IMG/VR virus record: IMGVR_UViG_3300037184_000166
Location: 1-26,268 of that record
DNA: 26,268 nucleotides
Direction: 5' to 3' (one strand)
From: a virus
Part shown: piece by piece, positions 1 through 26,268 of the stretch
Layout: the number at the start of each line of letters is the position of its first letter
Position numbering within the stretch: the stretch's first letter is position 1
Program-made: the position numbers and the translations under genes
The notes under the pieces: model-generated
The model's database searches: none
The model's input: only the letters and a program-made list of their open reading frames with translations
Told to the model about the DNA's origin: nothing

Positions 1-133
1 GGTTGACCGTGCCTCCAGGAGAGCCTCCACCCGCAGTTCCCGGGCGTGGTCCCTGGTAGACGGGCGCGAACGGTGGAATCAGCTGGGCCACGGCCGCCGC
101 CGGCAGGAGAAGGAAGAGAAGGAGCTTTTTCAT
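1..133 (-). CDS. Secreted protein, N-terminal fragment (runs off window)
   Basis: This gene is cut by the left edge; only the first 44 codons are visible. Translation from the ATG at 133 gives a textbook Sec signal peptide: MKK, a leucine-rich core (residues 4-10), then PAAAVA followed by Q17, a good signal peptidase I site after A16. The mature part starts with a Pro/Gly-rich stretch (IPPFAPVYQGPRPG, then a GGGSPGG linker), as in low-complexity spacers ahead of a binding domain. The start lies 2 bases after the stop of the preceding gene, so the two are probably translated together. It is the fourth gene in a row with an export-type leader. Function of the missing body is unknown; a secreted adhesin or fibre-associated protein is the guess from context. 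Confidence 0.72.
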   Translation of the reverse strand, partial: MKKLLLFLLLPAAAVAQLIPPFAPVYQGPRPGTAGGGSPGGTVN

Positions 134-135
134 CG

Positions 136-552
136 TCAGTTTGTGGGGAAGCTGGTCCCCTGGCTCGGTGTTGAGACACACAGGACGGTGGTTCCTGTGG
201 CCATGATGGCCCTGATCGGTATGCCGGTGAAGAAGGGGCCGTAAAGGGTCACGGACTGCCCTGCAGCCAGCCAGTACCCCCTTCCTGTGGCGCCTGTGGC
301 AGGATCGGTGCCAGTCACCCCCGTACGCTGGTCCTTGACCAAGGATCCGCCGTCCAGGCCGAGGTTGACTTGGTTGCCACCATTGGCGGTGGCTGCATTG
401 CTGATGGTGATCCAGGTGTCGCCAGGGCCCGCGGCAGCAATCGTGCTTACGGTCGAGGTGCTGAGGGAGGAGACGAGATGGTTGGCTGCGAGCGCCATCG
501 CCGGCAGTGCCAGCACCAGCGCGAAAGAGATGAGACGATGGATTGTTTTCAT
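136..552 (-). CDS. Secreted small beta-rich protein of the fibre cassette
   Basis: A 138-residue protein with a clear Sec signal peptide: MKTIHR, a hydrophobic core at residues 8-20, and an A-L-A site near residue 22 (PAMALA then ANH). An upstream in-frame start at 582 exists, but it would bury the leader and overlap the preceding gene, so ATG at 552 is preferred; it sits 4 bases after that gene's stop. The mature part is rich in Thr, Ser, Gly and Ala with alternating hydrophobics (TWITISN, LAAGQSVTLYGPF, AIMATGTTVLCVS), which suggests one small beta-sandwich or a virion-surface-type domain. I do not recognise a named family. Its position after the tail fibre and LamG genes suggests a role at the host surface or on the virion exterior, but that is inference. 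Confidence 0.75.
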   Translation of the reverse strand: MKTIHRLISFALVLALPAMALAANHLVSSLSTSTVSTIAAAGPGDTWITISNAATANGGNQVNLGLDGGSLVKDQRTGVTGTDPATGATGRGYWLAAGQSVTLYGPFFTGIPIRAIMATGTTVLCVSTPSQGTSFPTN

Positions 553-556
553 GAGA

Positions 557-1288
557 TTACAGGGTGTGAGTGTCGCCAGCAAAAATCTTGATCAGCGCCA
601 AGGAGCCAGTGAAGTAATAATAGTCGAATCCTTGGCCGATGGTCATAATCTGCGAAGCGAAAGCTGTGGGGGTAGTCCAAGTCGAACCCGCGACAGTTGC
701 AATGTCACCTCCGGAAGTTACGTACTGCTGGATCGTTCCGTTGGTGTTATTGAACACGATCTGCATATGCAGCCAGACCGAATTGGTAAGTGTTGTCGAG
801 GAGTAGTAGAGCGACGCGTGCCCCGCTGAGTCTCCTATGTAGGTATACAGCCTGCTCGCGCCAGATGGCACGTAGACAAGAAACGAGGCCGTAAGCGAAG
901 GGGTTATGAATAGGTAGGACGGCTGGGACCAATCCGAACAGAATGCCCAGAAATCAAGGGTGATGATCTGGTTGGAAGAATAGGACACGCCAGGTACTGA
1001 ATGGACGTACTGACTCACCCCGTCGAATTGAAGGTATGCTGATGCTCCTCCAGGCGGCGCCGAGGACGACCACATGCCAGTCGAGGAAATCTTGCCTGTG
1101 TTGCCGTTGCCCGAGGAGTCGTACAGGGTCGTGGAAAGCTGCGAATCGGCCATCTCCCAGTCAAGTAGGGCTGTGGCTGGAGGTGGTGCCGCAGGGGCAG
1201 GGTAGCTCCCAAAAACCTGTTGGGACCCACTGCCGAATAGTGGAGAGCTCCAGACTAGGACTAGAAGAAGTGAAAGGACGCGCTTCAT
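557..1288 (-). CDS. Secreted LamG / concanavalin A-like lectin-domain protein
   Basis: A 243-residue protein. Residues 1-19 form a signal peptide (MKR, then a leucine/valine core), followed by a Pro/Ala-rich linker (residues 28-40). Residues about 41-236 show LamG/ConA-like lectin hallmarks in order: an opening LLDWEM strand, YDSSGNGNTG (56-65), LQFDGVSQYV (86-95), TLDFWAFC (110-117), WLHMQIVFNNTNGTIQQYV (172-190) and a closing GSLALIKIF (228-236). This fold usually binds glycans or protein surfaces. The ATG overlaps the stop of the tail fibre gene (TGATG), so translation is probably coupled. Codon use looks more AT-rich than in the head genes. Likely an adhesin or fibre accessory; whether it joins the virion or is released by the infected cell is not visible. 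Fold assignment is fairly sure, role is not. Confidence 0.85.
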   Translation of the reverse strand: MKRVLSLLLVLVWSSPLFGSGSQQVFGSYPAPAAPPPATALLDWEMADSQLSTTLYDSSGNGNTGKISSTGMWSSSAPPGGASAYLQFDGVSQYVHSVPGVSYSSNQIITLDFWAFCSDWSQPSYLFITPSLTASFLVYVPSGASRLYTYIGDSAGHASLYYSSTTLTNSVWLHMQIVFNNTNGTIQQYVTSGGDIATVAGSTWTTPTAFASQIMTIGQGFDYYYFTGSLALIKIFAGDTHTL

Positions 1289-2877
1289 CAGTTCAAATTA
1301 ACCTGCCAGACACCTGGCGTGTTTGCCACCTTCACGATCGTGGCCGCATGGCTGACGGGGATTGTGAACGAGGCCACCACCCCCACACCGCCGTTCTCGT
1401 ACATAGTGTCAGAGCCGCTCATACCCACCGTGATCGTTCCGCCGCCAGTGGGAAGGTTGCTCAAGGTGATCGGCGTGCCGACCGCGTAGTTCACAGGATT
1501 CGTGCCGCCAGTATAGCTTGGAATCGTCCAGGCGACCGCGCCGCCAGATTGATGCGTCACCATGCCGTTCGCGTCACCTGCCACCAGTTCGTAGCTTCCC
1601 GTCTGTGGGTTTGGGGTGAGAACTTGGCTCGCGATGGCAGTCAGCACGTACTGGGTTGTGGCGATCTGCGTCGTGTTCGTGCCAGCCGCCGCGGTTGGGG
1701 CTAATGGGGTGCCGGCCAAGGTCGGAGATGTGGCCTTGACGTAGCTGCCTGTCCCGACGTTCGCCACAGACACCAGGGTCGTACTGCCGTTAAATTCCGC
1801 GGTGTAGGTCGAAGTGATCGATCCCGACGTGGAGATATTTCCAGCTCCGGCTGGTGTCTTCCAAGTCCCGTCGCCGCACCAGAAGGTACTCGACCCCGCA
1901 CCAGTTCCAGAAGCCAGGTTCCCGACAGGAAGGTTGCCTGTCACACCACCATTTCCGCTCGCTGCAAGATTGATGGCCCCAATCGTCACTGTGCCAGACG
2001 TGTTCAGCAGCGGCAAGGTGAACGAGTAGCTCGTACCCGGGACTGTCGCCCAAGTCCCGTTGCCGCACCAGTAATGGCTCGAGTCGGCATTGGTGCCGCT
2101 GTTCAGGTTCGCAACTGGCAGGTTCCCAGTCACCCCCCCGCTCCCTGATGCCGCAAGGTTGATCGCGTTGACCGAGAGTGTTCCGGACCCAGTGATGGGG
2201 TTGTTCGGGCTCGCTGAAAGGCCTCCGCCGGCAAGGATCGACGTTACTGTCCCAAGCCCGCCTCCACCCCCGGTGAATGGGTAGAACTTCAACGCCCCGG
2301 TGGCATCAAATCCAACAACCATCGACTCGCGGGCAGTCTTGGAAAGCAGACCGCTCGTAATCTCATCTCCCGGGAACTGCAGACTGTTCTGCGTCTGCAG
2401 GTTGATCTGCTGCAGGGCCATGGTGATTTTGTCCAGTGCCTGGCCGATCATCAATGGAGTCAAGGGGCCCGTGTTCGTGAACGTGGTCGTCTGGGTGAGA
2501 GGCACCGCCCGAGATATTGTGATGATGTCGTTTATTTGGACCGAGTTCGGGCCGCCGGGGATTGTTGTGATCGAGCCCGTGCTGCCATTCCCACCCGTAA
2601 CCGAGTAGTCCTCACCAACCGAAAGCGAGACAGGCGGGCTGGACTTGCTGTCCAAGACCAGCAGATCGCCGGCACCCTGGAAGACGAATGGCACTGGCAG
2701 GGTCTGCGGACCCGTGGTCAACGTGTACTGCACCCAGGTCGTAGTACTCGAGACCGTGGCCCGCGCCATGTTGGCCAAGGCGGCGCCCACCAGTATCGTG
2801 ATCGAGAACCAGTTCAGCGCCTTTCTGAATGGATCGTCCGAAGGTATCGGACCCCTTAGCCAAGTGGACAGTTTCAT
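1288..2877 (-). CDS. Tail fibre protein with T7-type attachment domain and N-terminal hydrophobic leader
   Basis: A 529-residue fibre. ATG 2877 is chosen over an upstream start at 2946 because a strong AGGAGG lies 9 bases before it. Residues about 21-40 are hydrophobic (WFSITILVGAALANMARA), resembling a signal peptide or membrane anchor. Residues about 45-160 resemble the T7 tail-fibre N-terminal domain that docks on the tail: a WVQYTLTTG start, LPVPFVFQGAGDLLV, VGEDYSV, ITISRAVPLTQ and ALDKITMALQQI. Then come a Gly-rich hinge (202-208), two 44-residue repeats beginning AINLAASG (238-281 and 301-344), the common fibre motif TSPTLAG...PTA...IATTQYV (385-411) and a beta-rich end. The gene follows the ATP-grasp gene by 13 bases. 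It is the main receptor-binding candidate. The leader ahead of a docking domain is odd. Confidence 0.88.
   Translation of the reverse strand: MKLSTWLRGPIPSDDPFRKALNWFSITILVGAALANMARATVSSTTTWVQYTLTTGPQTLPVPFVFQGAGDLLVLDSKSSPPVSLSVGEDYSVTGGNGSTGSITTIPGGPNSVQINDIITISRAVPLTQTTTFTNTGPLTPLMIGQALDKITMALQQINLQTQNSLQFPGDEITSGLLSKTARESMVVGFDATGALKFYPFTGGGGGLGTVTSILAGGGLSASPNNPITGSGTLSVNAINLAASGSGGVTGNLPVANLNSGTNADSSHYWCGNGTWATVPGTSYSFTLPLLNTSGTVTIGAINLAASGNGGVTGNLPVGNLASGTGAGSSTFWCGDGTWKTPAGAGNISTSGSITSTYTAEFNGSTTLVSVANVGTGSYVKATSPTLAGTPLAPTAAAGTNTTQIATTQYVLTAIASQVLTPNPQTGSYELVAGDANGMVTHQSGGAVAWTIPSYTGGTNPVNYAVGTPITLSNLPTGGGTITVGMSGSDTMYENGGVGVVASFTIPVSHAATIVKVANTPGVWQVNLN
1846..2166 (-). repeat. Two-copy 44-residue repeat inside the tail fibre gene
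   Basis: Two diverged copies of a 132-base unit at 2166-2035 and 1977-1846, separated by 57 bases. Each encodes AINLAASG(S/N)GGVTGNLPV(A/G)NL, then a SGT spacer, and ends in WCG(N/D)GTW. The copies keep the Cys-Gly and Trp positions, so they are shaft or knob modules rather than random similarity. Duplication of such units is a common way for fibres to change length. Confidence 0.85.
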
Positions 2878-2890
2878 CGGGGAATGCCTC

Positions 2891-4180
2891 CTATGCCTTT
2901 GTTTTCTCTTTATCAAGTTTGAAAGGAGATAGACCCAATTCCTCAAGCTTCTGAATCTCCTCGTTTGCCTGCTCCGCAGAGCCCAAGTTGAATTTGATCT
3001 GATAGCCTGAGATGGAATCGCCCGCCTCTTGGGCGTGATCCATCGCGGCCTGAAGAGTGTCGCCCCAGCCGACCACCGCGCCGCACTCGCTCATGTTCTC
3101 GGACTGCGGCACCACGTATCGCTGTCCGTCCACAAGGACCGAGTTGAAGAGCTTGATCTGGTTGGCGTATTTAAGAGGGTAGGTGACGGGCTGCCAATTC
3201 GACTCGGCCCACGCAGACTTCAGCACCACCTCCACACCCCACTTCCCGGCCGGCACCGGCTCCTTCAGGATGCCATCGGCGCCGAACCACATGATCTCGC
3301 TCAGGTTCGTGAAGAGCTCTTGCCAGAGTTCCGAGGGAGGGCATGGCGCGCGGATCGTCGCATCGACCATGTAAGGGACGTGATCCTCGCCGACGCGAAT
3401 CTCGTTCGACACAGAACCGCGGCATCCGTACTTAGCGAAGAGAGGGGCAAAGGCTTCGTTCCAGCGCCGCAGCGGCTCCGGAATGTCCATCCAGTCAACC
3501 ATGCCCCCGCAATAGCTCGCGTCCTTAATTTCGATTCCGAAGACCGTGTTCCTCGGATACCGGCCATCGATGCAATACGTGTCGACGCCAACCTCTCGCC
3601 GGTCTGGCAGGTCGTCCTCAACAATGAACTCGAGCGTCTCCTTGAAGCCGCCAAGCGTGTGTGCAAGCTCGACCAGCTTCGGCTCGATCTCGTCGTAGTT
3701 GCGGGCAAAAAAAGTTTCCGTGACGCCCCTCCAGCGATCGATCTTGACGTGCTGATCTTTGTGGGCCTTCAGGTGCGCATGAAGCTGGGTCATTCCATGT
3801 AACACTTTCCAGGGCTGCAGCGGCAGCTTCAACTCGGCCATGCGCTCCTTGCAGAGTTCCCGGTACAGCTCGAGTTCCTCGGCGTTCCGGCAGCCCCACA
3901 CCCGCTTCCCCCTCTTCTCAAGCTCGATCTGCATCGCGGCATGTCCCAAGTCTGGGAAAACGAAAAGATCCACCTTGTCAAAATGAGGTCCAAACACGCC
4001 ATCCACCAGCTCTACGTTCGGCAGCCCGTATCCAACCCGACCCTCGTTCATAGTCGGGAAGGACCCGGCGTATGGTACGAACAGGTATACCCGCCCGAAG
4101 TCGCGGCCGAGCCTCTCCGCCAAACTCACGAAGAGCGGATTGCAGCAGACGAAGGCGGTCTTGGATTTAAGGTCGATCAC
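2891..4180 (-). CDS. ATP-grasp family protein (PurD-like ligase fold)
   Basis: I take the GTG at 4180, which overlaps the preceding stop as GTGA, giving 429 residues; a TTG at 4216 is the longer alternative. The N-terminus has a nucleotide-type alpha/beta region (TAFVCCNPLFVSLAERL, VYLFVPYAG, KVDLFVFPDLGHA). The middle and end resemble ATP-grasp ligases of the phosphoribosylamine-glycine ligase type: a lysine and hydrophobic strand near residues 125-135, FIVEDDL (185-191), EVGVDTYCIDG (196-206), YMVDATIRAPCPP (270-282), and a PurD-like C-terminal VVGWGDTLQAAMDHA (369-383). ATP-grasp enzymes join a carboxylate to an amine or similar group through an acyl-phosphate. The substrate is unknown. 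It lies between virion genes and fibres, not among nucleotide genes, which argues against a purine role. A peptide or surface modification role is only a guess. Confidence 0.72.
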   Translation of the reverse strand: MIDLKSKTAFVCCNPLFVSLAERLGRDFGRVYLFVPYAGSFPTMNEGRVGYGLPNVELVDGVFGPHFDKVDLFVFPDLGHAAMQIELEKRGKRVWGCRNAEELELYRELCKERMAELKLPLQPWKVLHGMTQLHAHLKAHKDQHVKIDRWRGVTETFFARNYDEIEPKLVELAHTLGGFKETLEFIVEDDLPDRREVGVDTYCIDGRYPRNTVFGIEIKDASYCGGMVDWMDIPEPLRRWNEAFAPLFAKYGCRGSVSNEIRVGEDHVPYMVDATIRAPCPPSELWQELFTNLSEIMWFGADGILKEPVPAGKWGVEVVLKSAWAESNWQPVTYPLKYANQIKLFNSVLVDGQRYVVPQSENMSECGAVVGWGDTLQAAMDHAQEAGDSISGYQIKFNLGSAEQANEEIQKLEELGLSPFKLDKEKTKA

Positions 4181-4554
4181 GGCAGGCTGTAGATTTTCTT
4201 CTCGTACTTCGCCCAATCAACACCCAGCTCAGCAGACATCAGTGCCTCGATGTTCGTGGCAAAGAAGTGCTCCCGGCGGTACGGCGCCCTTGGATCGTCG
4301 CCGGGCTCATCGTCGTTCCCAGGCTTGCGTGCTTGTTCAAAAGCGATGTCGAAGGCATCCACTGACTCTTGGGAAATCTTCCGATGCCTGCAGAGGTTCA
4401 CCTCGACGAGCTCATGGAGGGCAACGAGGAGTTCGTAGCGCCAGTTGTTCATATCCGACACCTTGATGTGCAGGACGCCCTTGCTGGTGAACCAATCGCC
4501 AACGGTGGGGTATCGCTGCCTCGAGTGGGGTGTGGTCTCTATTACGATTTTCAT
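4177..4554 (-). CDS. Small conserved phage protein with HExxE motif (possible metal binding)
   Basis: A 125-residue protein whose ATG overlaps the stop of the giant virion gene (ATGA), so the two are probably coupled. It opens with MKIVIETTPHSRQRYPTVGDW, followed by a short beta region ending WRYELLVALHELVE. H47, E48 and E51, with H57 (CRH) six residues on, resemble a metal-binding helix such as those in small zinc proteases. A second conserved-looking stretch is DDPRAPYRREHFFAT (86-100), with H96. A classical HExxH is absent. From memory, proteins with this layout recur in uncultivated podovirus genomes, without a known function. A protease or structural metalloprotein is possible, but neither is shown. 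It is probably a late gene, since it shares the virion operon. Confidence 0.72.
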   Translation of the reverse strand: MKIVIETTPHSRQRYPTVGDWFTSKGVLHIKVSDMNNWRYELLVALHELVEVNLCRHRKISQESVDAFDIAFEQARKPGNDDEPGDDPRAPYRREHFFATNIEALMSAELGVDWAKYEKKIYSLP

Positions 4555-7500
4555 TTTCTAAAGCTTGTGTTGATGTCGCGCATCTTCGCGTACGGGTCGC
4601 GGGCCTCCACGGGCGTGTACTCCCTCGGCTCCCAGTCAATTCCATTCTCCTTGGCATACCGCCACAGAAGCTGCTGGAAGCGGCCGTACATCGCCTCGCG
4701 GAGGAACTGGGCCGTCAGCACCTGGTGGAGAGCCTTGGGCATTGGCTCGCCGGCTTCCTTCGGTTCGAGGCTCTGCAGGAAGGCGGCGTCCGATTCCTCG
4801 CTCTTTGTCCATGTGTGGAGCAGGCTCTCCCGCGCGCTCAGCTGCATGCGGTCAAGGGTCTTCGACTTGATCTCCCCGTCATCCTTCAGCTCGAGGCCGC
4901 GCTGTTCAGCATCCGCCTTGGCCTTCCCGGCGATCTCTTTCTGGACCGAGGAGAAATGATCCTTGATCGCCGCATAGGCCTTCTCGTCGTCGTTGTCCTC
5001 GAGGGCGTATCGGATCGGCTGGAACTCGCTGACGGGGTAGGTGCCGGTATCGTCCTTCGCTTTGAATGGGTCGTCCTTGGGCAGATTCTGGTTCCACTCA
5101 TGGGCCAGTTTGTAGGCGTCCGCGATCGGCGACCCGCGGCGGATCTGTATGCCCTGGCTCAACAGGAACTGCTGGAAGTTCGAAACGTCCATGTACCGCT
5201 GAGTCGGGCTGATGTCCTTCAACGCCTCCGAGACGCCCGGCATCCACTTCATCGAGATCGGCACCCAGGACACCGCTGCGTCCCGCAGGGCGTCTGTCGG
5301 GGTGATCCGCTCTCCGCGCCAGTTCATTCCCACAGTCATGTTCAGACCGTGCGAGACCATTGGTGAAAGCCGCGATACCAGGTACGGGTTTACCCCGCCC
5401 CGGTGGAAGGTCTGGTTCAACCCCTCCCAAAAGTTGAGCAGGTCCTGCGCCTCGTTGCGGATCCCGTAGTAGCGCCCGTTGTGGTAGACCATGAACGGCT
5501 CCTCCCAGTGCGGATCCTTGTCATCGTTGATAGCCATGTTCACGGCGCGGCTGACGAGCATCAGGGATCCCGCAGTCACCGCCAGACCGTACAGCGGCTG
5601 ACGGCCAGCCTTCGCCCCGGTCAGACCCACCACCTGCTGCCCGTAGTTGCGGATCGTCGCCTCGAGGAAGTCCGGGGCCAAGGCAGCGAACCGAATGAAA
5701 TGCTGAATCGTCGGATTGCGGTTCAGGAGGGCGTAGTTCTGGTGGCCGAACCTCGCGTTCACCTGCTCGCCAGTCAAGGCACTGATCTGCCTAGGAGTTA
5801 TTTTCCCCGCCTTCAACTCTTCAGAAAACAGCCTCATGTTCCGTTCGCGGAGCGCCTTGTAGGCCGTGAACTTCAGCCGCGGCAGGAAGACCTCGAAGGC
5901 CATGTGCTGCATCGCCTGGTTGGCGTCTGCCACCCTGCGCAGGTACGGAACCTTGCCGAGAATATCGATTCCGCTCCGGTGACCGCCTGTGCCCTCTGTG
6001 AACTCAGACCTTGAGGCCTGTGGTGAGATGAGCATCAAGCCGCCGTTCTTCACGGCCTCCTGCACCTCGGGATCCGCGGGATCGATCTTGTCCAGGTTGA
6101 AGACGTTGATGCCATAGGTGAATCCGCGCTTCGCCAAGTGGACCGGGTGGAACATCGAGAAGGCGCCCAGCATCGTGTTCGCGACGAACCTGTTCGACTG
6201 ATCGACGAACTTCGCGGCACGCTTTGAAATCTGCACCAAGTCACTGCCCGGGGCATCGTACCAGTCTTGGATGGCGGATCTACCGAGAATGTTGCGCAGC
6301 CAGCCGGCCACCTCAGGGTGGAAAACCATTCCGCGGAGCGACGGATGCTTTACCTCCTCGTAGGTGGTCTCGACATCCTCCGGCGGCTTCCCGTGGTAGG
6401 CAAGACGGTCGCCGTTCGAGCCGCGCTCGATCATCATCCTGCTGAGCATCCTGCGGGTGTTCACCGCCTTCGACAGTGCGTTGTTATACACAGTCATGAT
6501 CTCAAGGATGTCCTTCGTGGCAGCCTTGAAGCCTGCCTGCTCAAGCTCCCCAAAGTTCGGGAACGTCCGCGCCTGAGAGTACTTGAAATTCTTGTCCAGC
6601 TTGCCGTAGTACGCGCTCGCCACGCCGCCGCCTACGTACGGACGGTCGATGATCTGGGTGATGTAGTCCTCGCGGAACCGCTTCTCGTCCATCACTCCTT
6701 CCTTCACCGCCCGCTTGAACTGGTCGTCGAACCACTTCCCAATAACCTCCGTCATCGCCTTCTGCTCGTCTGTGAGCTTCAGGGCGGCCTGGTATCCCTT
6801 GCGAAGAGTGGTGTCAGTCGTCTGCTTCAGGCGGGCCCGGATCGTCGCCTCATCGTATCCTGCATCCCTCCAGTTCGACATGCCAATGCGGGTCAGGCGA
6901 TCAGGGGCCACCCTCTTCACCTCGCGGCCCACTGGCATGAACTTCAGTTGGTCTATCTGGATCCCGCCCACCCAGTCCGAAACGATCTGCCTGAAGCCTC
7001 CATCCATCGGCACGTTCCTCACGTAGTTGGCGGCGCGGCTGAGGCTGTCCCAGATCCCTCGCCCAACGTCCGCGGCCTGGCTCATCATCGGCGATGCGGC
7101 GCCCAGGTTCTTGGCCTCCTCAAGGGCCTGCTTCTCCACGCTGGTCTCCTTCCCATCCGGCAGGCCCTTGGTGGCACGGAGCAGGGCGTCGTTCGGATCA
7201 TCGGTCGCAGCCTGCTGGTCCTGGCGGAGCTTGGCGGCCATCTCCGGGGTGTTGGTCTTAGCCGACGCCTCGCCGGCCGGGTTCTGCAGGACGAATCCGT
7301 GGTCATCCTTCGTCACCTTCATATCCTCGGCCTGTGGATCCGCCTGTCGCTGCAACTCCTGTGCGCCGGCATAGAGCTGCCCGAGGATCGGCCGCATGCT
7401 CTCGCCGGTCTCGGATTCAAATTGCGCGACAGCCGCGGCGAATGACTTTCCGCCACGGATCATCATGTCCGCCACCACGATCGTGGCATCGAGGATGTCT

Positions 7501-10500
7501 GCAGGATCCAATCCAGCTGCAACGCGCCCGAGGTGGCGCTTGTTCATCCTGTCGATCGCCGCCTGTGCTGCGGCGCCGGGTCCTCCTGCAGGAGGCCTTA
7601 CTGGTCCTTCGTTTCCTTCGGGGATTCCGCCGGCTTGCTCGTAGGCGGAGCGTAGCGGCGTGCTGGCTGCTCCCGCAGCTTGCGGCAGCGACATCTGTTT
7701 TGCCGCTTTCCTCACGGCATCGACAAACGCATCCTCATATTGGTCTGCATCGCCCCTGCCACCGTACTCCTTAAAATTCTCCTCGGCTGCATCTCGGTAA
7801 TCGTCAACTGCGCCCTGTAAAGATTCCGGCGCCTTCCCTTCGATGATAAGCCCTTCGACGTGATCCACCAGGTCGGGCACCGTTGAAATATCACCCGTAT
7901 TTTCGTATTTATGCAACGCATCCTCTAGCGCATTTGTGTCGCCTGTGAATCCAGATACAGGTTGAGAGGAAACCGATTCGGCAGTCGCAGTTTCCGATGT
8001 CAAAGGTCGCATCAATTTACCCGTGTGCATGTCGCCGGGGTAATATGTGTCTTTTGCGGGGTTAATCTGCTGAGTGGTCTTGGCCCGCTGATATGTGTCT
8101 GGGCGATTCAGGAAAGAGCCCGCCCCGTCCACAAATCCAGCCATGGATTCATCTACTTTCTCGCCCGCATCTTGCGCGGCTATTTGTGCCTCCATGTGGT
8201 CCGTTCCTGTGAAAACCTTCCCGTCGGGTGTTTTGTACGCAGCCAAAACAATGCGATGCCCGGAACTATCCAACTGTGAGAATGGCGCAGTCGCCTTTAC
8301 GTCCACAGCCTCTGTCTTTTCCCGGGCAACGTCCGCGCCCTTATCCAGCGCGCTTTGCATCATCTGCCGCTCCTCGGCTGTGAGATCCACGTCAAGTTTG
8401 TCAGGCCGGATCCGGGCGGCGATGGCATTGCCTGCGGCGACTAGATCCTCGTCTCCGTGGCCTCGATCATCGCGGGCCCAATCCAAAACTTCACGGGCTG
8501 TCAGTGGCTTCGTTGGATCCGCCAAGCGAGTCGGAACATCACTTGTTTCAGCTTGGCCGCCAGACGCCAGAGCCCCCTGGGCCTTCGCGTACTCAGTTGC
8601 CGCCAGTGCCGTGTCCTTCTTCGTCGCATCGACGGCCTGCGAGTACATCTCACCAAGGAAGGGGCGGATGCCGGTTCCAAATTCGTCCTGCATCCTCGAG
8701 GACCACTCTGCCAATGTCGTCACCCCCTTGAGAATCAAGTCTGACCCAATGATCAGCCCGTCAGCGATGTCCCGTGGGTCGAAGTTAGCCGTGGTCTCAC
8801 CCTGCGCCCGCCTTTCCATGAAGCGGGCTTTTGCCTCGTTGACAATCCGGTCTCTGATGTTGGCCGGCTGGCCTCTGGCATCCAAAGATGCGAGGGCGGC
8901 GCGTTGCTCGATCGGCGGAGGCTGAGCCTTTTCCCCTGCCTTCTTCCCTGCAACGTAGGGTTCCACACCTAGGGACGCGATGTTCCGGTTTGGCTCCTTG
9001 CCGGTTCCCTCGATTTCTATCCAGAAGGGATCGCCGGCCTTCCTGACGCCAGGCATGACCATGAAGTTTCCCTCATCATCACGGACCAGCGTTCCTGTCC
9101 AGCCTCGATAGTTCACCACCTTACCGATCAGGGATCCAAGCATCGTCTGCTCCGGAGCCTTCCCAAAAGCCGTCGCGTACATCAGGTTGTACTGGTGCTC
9201 GGCGAGGATGGACTGCATTCGCTCGGTGGAGTAGGCATCCTGCAGGGCCTTGACCACATCTTCCGGAACACCATAGGCCCGCATGGCGGTCTTGTCCTTC
9301 ATCCACGCGCGGGCGAATCCCTCATCCCTGAAAGCTGCATGCCCTCCTGCCACGAGGGCGGTGACGGCCATCATTGCGATCGTCGACGGTGCGGACTCCT
9401 TGTAGGCGTCCAGGGTCTTGTGCCAGTCCACCTCTGGTATCGCCGCGTCAAAGTGGCGGTAGAGGGCCTGGATGAAATCTGAGGATGTTGCCTGGAAACT
9501 CAGGACCCCACCCACTGCGGCGGCGTCAATGGCGGTCTCGCCGGCCGCACGGGCCCCGGCTGACTTGAGACCGGCGATCAGCTTGTTCATGCCGGTCATT
9601 TTGCCGATCAGCTTGCCGCCGATCATCATCGACATGACATCAGCGCCGGCCGTATCGGAGGCCATGTTGATGGCCTTGTCCAAAGGGATACCCTTGGAGC
9701 GGTATCGCTCGATGTTCTCAGCCTTGATCGCCTCAAAGTTCATGAGGAGTCCAGGACCGCTGAACCAGGTCAGGATCGACGGGATTCCCACCGCGGCCCA
9801 TTCGGAAACCTTCTTCACCCATCCCTGACCTTTCGCCGGCTCGTTCAGCCCCATGGTCGCCCGGTAAAGGTCATGGTCTGCTTGGATCCGGTTGTAGTCG
9901 GCCTCAGGGTCTGTCGCCGGCACGGGCGCCACCGGGGATCCGGGGCGTGATGCGCGCTGGTTGAAGGCCTCCACTGTGTTGTGCTCAAGGTCAGCCTGAA
10001 GCTCCCTGACCCCGGTCTGAACGCCTTCAACCCACTCAGCGAACGTCCGAAGACCCATCCTCCCGAGCTTCCCAACCTCACCCTCTTCTGGCTGGGCGCC
10101 GCGGGATTCCTTCGCCTTATGGGAGGACAAGGCCAGCACCACATCGCGATCCTCCTGGCTGAGACCCGCGATGGCATCCATTGCAGCCTTGCGCTGCTCC
10201 GGGGCCACGTTCGCGATCAAGTCCTGGTCCGGCCGTATGGATCCCATGTAGGCGGTCACTGCGTTGATCGCCGGGCCCAGCTTCGTCACCTTCGCCTGGT
10301 AGTCCTTCTGCACGGCATCAGCCACGGCATGGTAGTAGTCGCGGTGGGTGGGGTCGTAGGCGGAGTCGGCCTCAACTTCCTTCTGGGTGGCATCCCAGGA
10401 GCCCTTCGGATCCTGACCTCCGTAGAGCTTGACAGCCAGACTCGAGGCCATCTTGCCAACCATGACGCCTTCCGTCTGTTCCTTCTTCAGCTGGAGCCCG

Positions 10501-10988
10501 GCTTGGCCGAAGAACTGTCCGTCGTCCATCTTCGGATCCCATCCAGCCTTCTGGGCATAGTCGCCACGGTAGAGCTCATAGTTCTGGACGATCTCCGAAA
10601 GGGGCTTCTGGTAGCGGGTGGCGAGGAAGATCTGGCTGGCAGTCCTCTGGCGCTGCACGCGCGGATCGACCGATGTCTTGCCCAATTCCTCCAGTTTGGC
10701 TGATGCGTCCTTCCCCACCGCCTTCTGGAACTCCTCGTCGCCTTGAAATAGGCTTGTCAGCTTGTCAGAATCGATTGTGGGGGTTTTTTCGCCGGCAGTT
10801 GATACCTGCGTAGCCTCAGCAACCGCGGTGGACGCCACGGGCACTGTTCCACGTGGTTGGCCGTGGGCGTAACCCGTTCCCTCCTTGACCAGTTCGGAGG
10901 GCTTGGATGGGTCAAACTTCGGCTCTTCAGCGACCGTCGCGGCGCCGCCGGAGACCAGTTCGGAGGGTTGATTCGGGTCGAAAGCCAT
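4551..10988 (-). CDS. Giant internal (ejected) virion protein, gp16-position, polyvalent-protein-like
   Basis: A 2145-residue protein in the place of T7 gp16, which has about 1300 residues. Its ATG directly follows the previous TAA, with GAGGT upstream. N-terminus: two copies of FDPxxPSELV (residues 3-12 and 25-34). There are hydrophobic stretches near residues 398-420, 532-548 and 1798-1818, which fits a protein that inserts in membranes during DNA ejection. A module of about 50 residues (DI.D..I...D....G, then a G..RP.LG..Y ending) occurs twice, at about 736-788 and 1160-1212. Residues about 897-1097 include a small domain (KTPDGKVFTG... and GFVDGAG.FLNR) known to me from large phage polyvalent proteins; codon use there is more AT-rich. 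The C-terminal part is helical and charged. No transglycosylase or protease motif was seen. Likely ejectosome component; exact activity unknown. Confidence 0.8.
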   Translation of the reverse strand: MAFDPNQPSELVSGGAATVAEEPKFDPSKPSELVKEGTGYAHGQPRGTVPVASTAVAEATQVSTAGEKTPTIDSDKLTSLFQGDEEFQKAVGKDASAKLEELGKTSVDPRVQRQRTASQIFLATRYQKPLSEIVQNYELYRGDYAQKAGWDPKMDDGQFFGQAGLQLKKEQTEGVMVGKMASSLAVKLYGGQDPKGSWDATQKEVEADSAYDPTHRDYYHAVADAVQKDYQAKVTKLGPAINAVTAYMGSIRPDQDLIANVAPEQRKAAMDAIAGLSQEDRDVVLALSSHKAKESRGAQPEEGEVGKLGRMGLRTFAEWVEGVQTGVRELQADLEHNTVEAFNQRASRPGSPVAPVPATDPEADYNRIQADHDLYRATMGLNEPAKGQGWVKKVSEWAAVGIPSILTWFSGPGLLMNFEAIKAENIERYRSKGIPLDKAINMASDTAGADVMSMMIGGKLIGKMTGMNKLIAGLKSAGARAAGETAIDAAAVGGVLSFQATSSDFIQALYRHFDAAIPEVDWHKTLDAYKESAPSTIAMMAVTALVAGGHAAFRDEGFARAWMKDKTAMRAYGVPEDVVKALQDAYSTERMQSILAEHQYNLMYATAFGKAPEQTMLGSLIGKVVNYRGWTGTLVRDDEGNFMVMPGVRKAGDPFWIEIEGTGKEPNRNIASLGVEPYVAGKKAGEKAQPPPIEQRAALASLDARGQPANIRDRIVNEAKARFMERRAQGETTANFDPRDIADGLIIGSDLILKGVTTLAEWSSRMQDEFGTGIRPFLGEMYSQAVDATKKDTALAATEYAKAQGALASGGQAETSDVPTRLADPTKPLTAREVLDWARDDRGHGDEDLVAAGNAIAARIRPDKLDVDLTAEERQMMQSALDKGADVAREKTEAVDVKATAPFSQLDSSGHRIVLAAYKTPDGKVFTGTDHMEAQIAAQDAGEKVDESMAGFVDGAGSFLNRPDTYQRAKTTQQINPAKDTYYPGDMHTGKLMRPLTSETATAESVSSQPVSGFTGDTNALEDALHKYENTGDISTVPDLVDHVEGLIIEGKAPESLQGAVDDYRDAAEENFKEYGGRGDADQYEDAFVDAVRKAAKQMSLPQAAGAASTPLRSAYEQAGGIPEGNEGPVRPPAGGPGAAAQAAIDRMNKRHLGRVAAGLDPADILDATIVVADMMIRGGKSFAAAVAQFESETGESMRPILGQLYAGAQELQRQADPQAEDMKVTKDDHGFVLQNPAGEASAKTNTPEMAAKLRQDQQAATDDPNDALLRATKGLPDGKETSVEKQALEEAKNLGAASPMMSQAADVGRGIWDSLSRAANYVRNVPMDGGFRQIVSDWVGGIQIDQLKFMPVGREVKRVAPDRLTRIGMSNWRDAGYDEATIRARLKQTTDTTLRKGYQAALKLTDEQKAMTEVIGKWFDDQFKRAVKEGVMDEKRFREDYITQIIDRPYVGGGVASAYYGKLDKNFKYSQARTFPNFGELEQAGFKAATKDILEIMTVYNNALSKAVNTRRMLSRMMIERGSNGDRLAYHGKPPEDVETTYEEVKHPSLRGMVFHPEVAGWLRNILGRSAIQDWYDAPGSDLVQISKRAAKFVDQSNRFVANTMLGAFSMFHPVHLAKRGFTYGINVFNLDKIDPADPEVQEAVKNGGLMLISPQASRSEFTEGTGGHRSGIDILGKVPYLRRVADANQAMQHMAFEVFLPRLKFTAYKALRERNMRLFSEELKAGKITPRQISALTGEQVNARFGHQNYALLNRNPTIQHFIRFAALAPDFLEATIRNYGQQVVGLTGAKAGRQPLYGLAVTAGSLMLVSRAVNMAINDDKDPHWEEPFMVYHNGRYYGIRNEAQDLLNFWEGLNQTFHRGGVNPYLVSRLSPMVSHGLNMTVGMNWRGERITPTDALRDAAVSWVPISMKWMPGVSEALKDISPTQRYMDVSNFQQFLLSQGIQIRRGSPIADAYKLAHEWNQNLPKDDPFKAKDDTGTYPVSEFQPIRYALEDNDDEKAYAAIKDHFSSVQKEIAGKAKADAEQRGLELKDDGEIKSKTLDRMQLSARESLLHTWTKSEESDAAFLQSLEPKEAGEPMPKALHQVLTAQFLREAMYGRFQQLLWRYAKENGIDWEPREYTPVEARDPYAKMRDINTSFRK
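10887..10982 (-). repeat. FDPxxPSELV N-terminal repeat pair in the giant virion gene
   Basis: Two 10-residue copies (FDPNQPSELV at 10982-10953 and FDPSKPSELV at 10916-10887), 12 residues apart. The underlying DNA is also similar. Such short N-terminal motifs recur in large virion proteins and may be docking or packaging tags; that role is inferred. Confidence 0.7.
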
Positions 10989-25966: not shown

Positions 25967-26268
25967 TCAATTATTCGGGTTGCTCCGGTTGTTTGTGCCG
26001 CTGTCGCTCACTCCAATCGTCCCGGCGGTCGTGAAGTTCTTCAAGCAGTTCCAATTTGATCCTGAGTCGATTGTGATCCCGGCGTAGGGGTAGCTCCATG
26101 TCCAGTCTGAGAGTGAGTTGGCGAGGGAGTTTCCGGTGATGTAGATCCCGGTCGTGATGCCTCCATAGGGTGCGATGCCGTTGAAGTTGCAGTACTGGCA
26201 GTCGTTCAAGAGAAGGTAGTAGGCATAGCCGCCGGGAATGTAGGAGTCGTCCGCAGCGATCATCGAGT
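25967..26268 (-). CDS. Beta-helix-like protein, C-terminal fragment (runs off window)
   Basis: The reading frame is open to the right edge, so only the last 99 or so residues are seen; the ATG at 26263 need not be the true start. Short repeating turns rich in Asn, Gly, Tyr and Thr (NDCQYCNFNG, TTGIYITGNSLANS, AGITIDSGSNWNCLKNFTTAGTIG) resemble the last coils of a right-handed parallel beta-helix, as in tail spikes and pectate-lyase-like proteins. The stop is 3 bases before the terminase GTG. A fibre or spike next to terminase would fit, as would a depolymerase, but the domain is incomplete here. Confidence 0.6.
   Translation of the reverse strand, partial: SMIAADDSYIPGGYAYYLLLNDCQYCNFNGIAPYGGITTGIYITGNSLANSLSDWTWSYPYAGITIDSGSNWNCLKNFTTAGTIGVSDSGTNNRSNPNN

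Follow-up and report, generated by a model that had tools for sequence, protein, structure and literature searches.

At its left end, the window (the whole stretch of DNA analysed here, a 26,268-base podovirus fragment from IMG/VR) carries a fibre cassette of four genes, all of which encode N-terminal leaders that very probably function as Sec signals. Our preferred reading, to which we assign a probability of about one half, is that the cassette encodes virion fibres that would leave the cytoplasm through Sec, mature in the periplasm, and attach to virions at lysis. The sequence-only reading of this DNA had proposed four consecutive left-end genes with export-type leaders; all the open reading frames lie where it placed them, all four are leader-bearing by the rule used here, and the leaders are conserved in relatives.

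The window phage is a soil-type podovirus, and its capsid protein shares ~30% identity with those of Pelagibacter phage HTVC010P and its allies. On the minus strand, the genes run from TerL through the head-tail connector/portal, a scaffold-like protein, a GroES-like protein, and the major capsid protein to two tail-tube proteins, internal proteins, a 2,145-aa protein, two small conserved genes, and the fibre cassette (Table 1). Genes 1 and 2 share one base, the spacings between genes 2 and 3 and between genes 3 and 4 are 4 and 2 bases, and a strong Shine-Dalgarno sequence (AGGAGG) precedes the first ATG of gene 1. The 2,145-aa internal protein (4551-10988) is barely alignable with the giant proteins of 1,513 to 3,491 aa at the same place in the related contigs G003, G002, and G004. 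Directly before the fibre lies a gene for a 441-aa protein of unknown family (2891-4216), as it does in G002 and G007; a homologue is also found at the contig end of G006, and a 426-aa gene occupies the same place in L117. The 441-aa protein has no match in Pfam, PHROG, or PDB, and its assignment as an ATP-grasp enzyme was rejected for want of Pfam or PDB support. At the right end, positions 25967-26263 encode the C-terminal 98 residues of the protein whose gene precedes TerL, which is all that the window retains of a second receptor module. In G002, this module (25535-27683) comprises a leaderless tailspike-like protein and a leader-bearing 145-aa companion, and the sugar-transferase- and methyltransferase-like open reading frames beside it (27736-31391) possibly point, on a by-eye reading, to surface glycan change.

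Table 1. Features of the fibre cassette in the window
Feature	Position	Strand	Basis
Gene 1, 529 aa	1288..2877	-	
Gene 1 leader, residues 1-40, predicted cut ARA/TVSST	2758..2877	-	Alignment with leaderless homologues; n/h/c rule; AGGAGG upstream
T7-like virion-docking domain, gene 1 residues 41-169	2371..2757	-	PHROG 1640 tail protein; PDB profile match
Gene 1 shaft and distal part	1288..2370	-	Tail-fibre repeats phrog_2631 and phrog_454 at residues 370-419
Gene 2, 243 aa: leader of 19-22 residues and putative LamG/ConA-like lectin domain	557..1288	-	Pfam Laminin_G_3; G004 relative
Gene 3, 138 aa: 22-residue leader (ALA/A) and ~116-residue beta domain	136..552	-	Homologues; AF2 model
Gene 4, 44 aa visible, frame open at contig end: 16-residue leader (AVA/Q) and start of a further fibre protein	1..133	-	ORF; same-position genes in relatives

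Signal peptides were predicted by a crude n/h/c rule written for this analysis; as a control, it was positive on every one of 15 textbook E. coli signal peptides. The rule is positive on all four cassette genes, each of which shows by this rule the Sec/SPI hallmarks of a basic n-region, a hydrophobic core, and a small-x-small site. Shuffled N-termini are positive in 145 of 5760 cases (2.5%), and homologues of TerL, portal, scaffold, MCP, tail-tube, and internal proteins in seven related contigs yield no positives. In the same seven contigs, the rule picks out three of the five fibres as well as the LamG gene and all three called gene 3 homologues. The shuffle rate and the absence of positives among the core head and tail genes reject chance hydrophobic N-termini, and we count these results in favour of exported fibres. 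The leader of gene 1 is the weakest of the four, with a 23-residue n-region containing two Asp residues, and its top-scoring site lies at residue 32, yet the ARA/T site at residue 40 is better placed. This doubt is settled by the gene 1 homologue in G002 (contig ..041809_000716), which has a textbook leader and an aligned A/T junction. For genes 3 and 4, the predicted cleavage sites agree with those read from the sequence alone; in gene 2 the proposed LFG site (after residue 19) has an alternative at SGS (after residue 22).

The same cassette, suggested by the sequence-only reading as something to look for in related contigs, was found in G002, G004, and L032 with leaders and in G007 without them. 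G002 carries the fibre, the gene 3 homologue, and the gene 4 homologue in the same order, and G004 carries the fibre, gene 3, and a LamG protein; leaders are present on three of three genes in each of these contigs and in L032, and on none of three in G007. The fibre of G003 is also leaderless. Leader presence tends to be common to the genes along a cassette. The gene after a leader-bearing fibre has a leader at 5 of 7 loci, against 8 of 49 (Fisher p 0.005, uncorrected for kinship), or at 6 of 7 if a GTG start in L034 is included. We take the coordination of leaders as a further point for exported fibres. One phage (L183:1598-3558) has two leader-bearing fibre genes with one small gene between them.

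In two families, the fibre and gene 3, the leaderless homologues start exactly at the predicted cut point of the leader. The alignments show fibre junctions such as ...ARA/TVSST and ...VLA/NISSQ against the leaderless starts M-ITSQ and M-ISSTT, and gene 3 junctions such as ...AFA/NIKQV and ...AHA/IIKQV against M-AIGQT. Ala occupies position -1 in 7 of 7 leader-bearing fibres and 5 of 5 gene 3 proteins (12 of 12). This coincidence of cut point and leaderless start also argues for exported fibres.

The docking domain itself appears intact behind the leader. Residues 41-169 of gene 1 match the PHROG 1640 tail protein (E 7.9e-13), and the docking profile A1 matches the tailspike Dpo31/36 (PDB 28lx/8ck1; E 9.4e-11); a direct search of the cultured-phage collection with the head of the window fibre gave no match. 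A scan with the docking domain gave 80 viral loci; nearly all of the fibres start directly at the domain, and seven, including that of the window, have a leader ahead of it. Mapped on the docking-domain tree, leader presence requires no fewer than five gains or losses, four of which are forced. Scored with a profile built from leaderless fibres outside the window clade, the docking domains of the clade's five leader-bearing fibres reach 75-98 bits and those of its leaderless fibres 51-75 bits. The leader is therefore not accompanied by a lower score, and relaxed selection on docking is not apparent. The retained domain, a cleavage that would restore the leaderless N-terminus, and the leaders on annotated tail fibres described below together favour a virion part that is finished outside the cytoplasm.

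The fibre of G004 (L033:5983-7767; contig G004, 36329-38116) combines a leader, a docking domain, a shaft, a Peptidase_S74 endosialidase-type chaperone (40.3 bits, cut-off 22), and a C-terminal TM helix followed by a basic tail. Under the positive-inside rule, the body of this fibre would lie outside the cytoplasm and may be held there until S74 self-cleavage, and this topology fits an exported body. The S74-plus-TM layout is reminiscent of eukaryotic MYRF. The loci L036, L037, L039, and L117 count against exported virion fibres, as in each of them a short docking protein lacks a leader and the fibre proteins that follow have one. L117 is a 26.7-kb contig in a MAG labelled Armatimonadetes and the only genome match for the window clade, possibly a host hint and possibly a mis-binned phage contig; the first part of its docking gene is nearly identical to those of viral contig ..037089_000228, and a leader-bearing fibre gene comes next.

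Gene 2 scores 27.2 bits against Pfam Laminin_G_3, slightly below the cut-off of 27.6, and its structure model has a pLDDT of 38; the G004 cassette includes a leader-bearing protein with two domains that are 21-27% identical to gene 2. Homologues of gene 3 have a leader in G002, G004, L032, and L036 and none in G007. The AF2 model of gene 3 is all beta (pLDDT 85), its fold search returned weak PDB matches only (best E 3.7e-3), and a direct search of the cultured-phage collection gave no match. The genes at the gene 4 position in G002, L032, and L036 are leader-bearing, and in L032 and L036 the leader is followed by tail-fibre domains, that of L036 matching the PHROG 11393 fibre-tip family; in the window, gene 4 is truncated where the contig stops.

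A second leader-bearing family consists of fibre-tip proteins; through those of L043 and L058, BcepC6B gp19 and PBR31 orf035 were identified as members. With these four proteins as queries, 366 relatives were obtained, and the best 80 were assessed. Leaders are present in about 75 of the best 80 (65 + 6 by the rule, and at least three that are obvious but missed by it). The family occurs mostly in phages other than the window type, and its genes lie beside docking or spike genes (17 of 77 loci) and also beside myophage baseplate genes. A Cys-x16-Cys pair occurs in 50 of 59 distinct mature sequences, and even and odd Cys counts stand at 46:10 in this family versus 20:27 in leaderless docking fibres. 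Judged from sequence, this is the pattern of disulfide-bonded exported proteins. The fibres of KpV74, Nobby, and Mulvp2, which have related tip domains, show neither a leader nor the Cys-x16-Cys pair. The leaders, the Cys pair, and the even Cys counts of the fibre-tip family add to the case for exported fibres. Disulfide support was also tested for the window-type fibres and is absent; their Cys counts are mostly odd, so disulfides provide no argument for periplasmic folding there.

Tail fibres are usually assumed to be folded in the cytoplasm and added to the virion in that compartment. From the leaders, their coordination, placement, gain and loss, and the docking domain, we infer a different course for the window phage. 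Gene 1 would supply the phage's own receptor-binding fibre and genes 2-4 its accessory fibre or lectin proteins; all would be produced late, with Sec signal peptides, and transferred to the periplasm by SecYEG. Signal peptidase I would then cut off the leader, giving gene 1 the same N-terminus as leaderless docking fibres, and the mature proteins would fold and oligomerise in the periplasm. At lysis, cytoplasmic virions would meet the periplasmic pool, and the docking domain would join fibres to tails after or during lysis. Against this course, we know of no phage whose fibres are normally attached after lysis; tailspike can be added in vitro to tailless P22 heads. With slightly less confidence, we suggest that some tailed phages may share a widespread, undescribed route of Sec export, periplasmic maturation (with disulfides in one family), and attachment only at lysis, so that the virion would be completed outside the cytoplasm. 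If this is true, fibres in many soil and Burkholderia-type phages would not be folded and joined in the cytoplasm, contrary to textbook assembly, and the laboratory expression and study of such receptor-binding proteins would change (an oxidising compartment, a cleaved N-terminus). The recurrent leader in podophages and myophages raises the testable question of when and where the fibre meets the virion.

The leading competitor is that the exported fibres never enter the virion and act as secreted decoys, which would engage the receptors of the dying cell, of debris, or of neighbouring cells and so block superinfection or keep progeny from being trapped on debris. This explanation draws on the lectin-like gene 2 and on the leader-bearing fibre-tip proteins, which often lack a docking domain of their own and come after a distinct docking or spike gene (17 of 77 loci; BcepC6B gp18/gp19, PBR31 orf034/035). 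It is nonetheless unlikely, because the window fibre and six others keep the full docking domain without signs of relaxed constraint, the annotated tail fibre of lytic myophages has a leader, and Sec alone gives no passage across the outer membrane. The sequence-only reading had suggested that the infected cell exports phage-coded adhesins as an extracellular arm. Its first half gains support, as the leaders are real and conserved and the predicted export of the fibre-locus proteins is well founded, but the arm of decoys is not borne out by a docking domain that is kept and whose leaderless N-terminus cleavage would restore.

Less likely still is membrane staging, in which the leader tethers fibre chains to the inner membrane for assembly near lysis sites, or serves as a structural hydrophobic N-terminus of the virion fibre, without full export. 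Hydrophobic N-termini of such length can anchor, and in the G004 fibre a C-terminal TM helix is present as well, but the leaders are diverse, end in a fixed small-x-Ala at the domain edge, occur on non-docking proteins as well, and look cleavable. It is improbable that genes 2-4 encode host-directed secreted proteins, such as matrix or cell-surface lectins, that merely share an operon with the fibre. Gene 2 is LamG-like and lambda lom is a precedent for an exported non-virion gene among tail genes (PMC12309495), but profiles identify both the fibre-tip family and the genes at the gene 4 position in L032 and L036 as tail-fibre proteins, and leaders are gained and lost together across cassettes. 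An annotation artefact, with real starts downstream and untranslated leaders, is the least probable: internal ATGs do lie near the domain start in the window fibre (MARATV...) and gene 3 (MALAANH...), but AGGAGG stands at the first ATG of gene 1, the n/h/c architecture is fixed across about 75 loci (among the best 80 of 366 relatives), and misplaced starts are rejected by the other six leader-bearing fibres, which have no ATG start at the junction.

Leaders on fibres also occur beyond this podovirus, among them in many Burkholderia-type phages. GenBank notes on Bcep1 gp51 and Bcep781 gp49 read 'possible tail fiber; possible signal peptide domain', and the leader of Bcep1 gp51 is plain on reading its sequence; the leader on a fibre was thus already known from annotation and is not wholly new. 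No published explanation of leaders on tail fibres was found in the open-licence literature, and a PBR31 genome paper describes a signal peptide on gp40 and does not discuss the leader of orf035 (PMC10975493). Bcep1 gp51 and Bcep781 gp49 (Burkholderia phages, Naesvirus) resemble the window in having a Sec-type leader on the tail fibre, which in these myophages is the annotated fibre itself and so supports exported fibres. They differ in their myophage baseplate context, in that a T7-like docking domain is not recognised, and in carrying a leader on one gene only. BcepC6B gp19 and Xanthomonas phage PBR31 orf035 (PHROG 11393) are, like the window proteins, leader-bearing podophage fibres, located after a docking or spike gene, but here the leader replaces the docking domain instead of preceding it, and C-x16-C is conserved. 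Lambda Lom is likewise a phage-coded protein exported to the envelope, but it belongs to the outer-membrane protein/lipoprotein class and is not homologous to tail fibres. T5 Llp, an exported phage lipoprotein of the envelope whose function is similar to a decoy or superinfection block, is also unlike the window fibres in lacking homology to tail fibres. HTVC010P-type podophages resemble the window in their docking domain and have a major capsid protein related to its own, but the HTVC010P fibre is leaderless and starts at the docking domain. The T7-like docking fibre is a cytoplasmic protein with the domain at its very N-terminus, and the window fibre departs from this type by the 40-residue leader in front.
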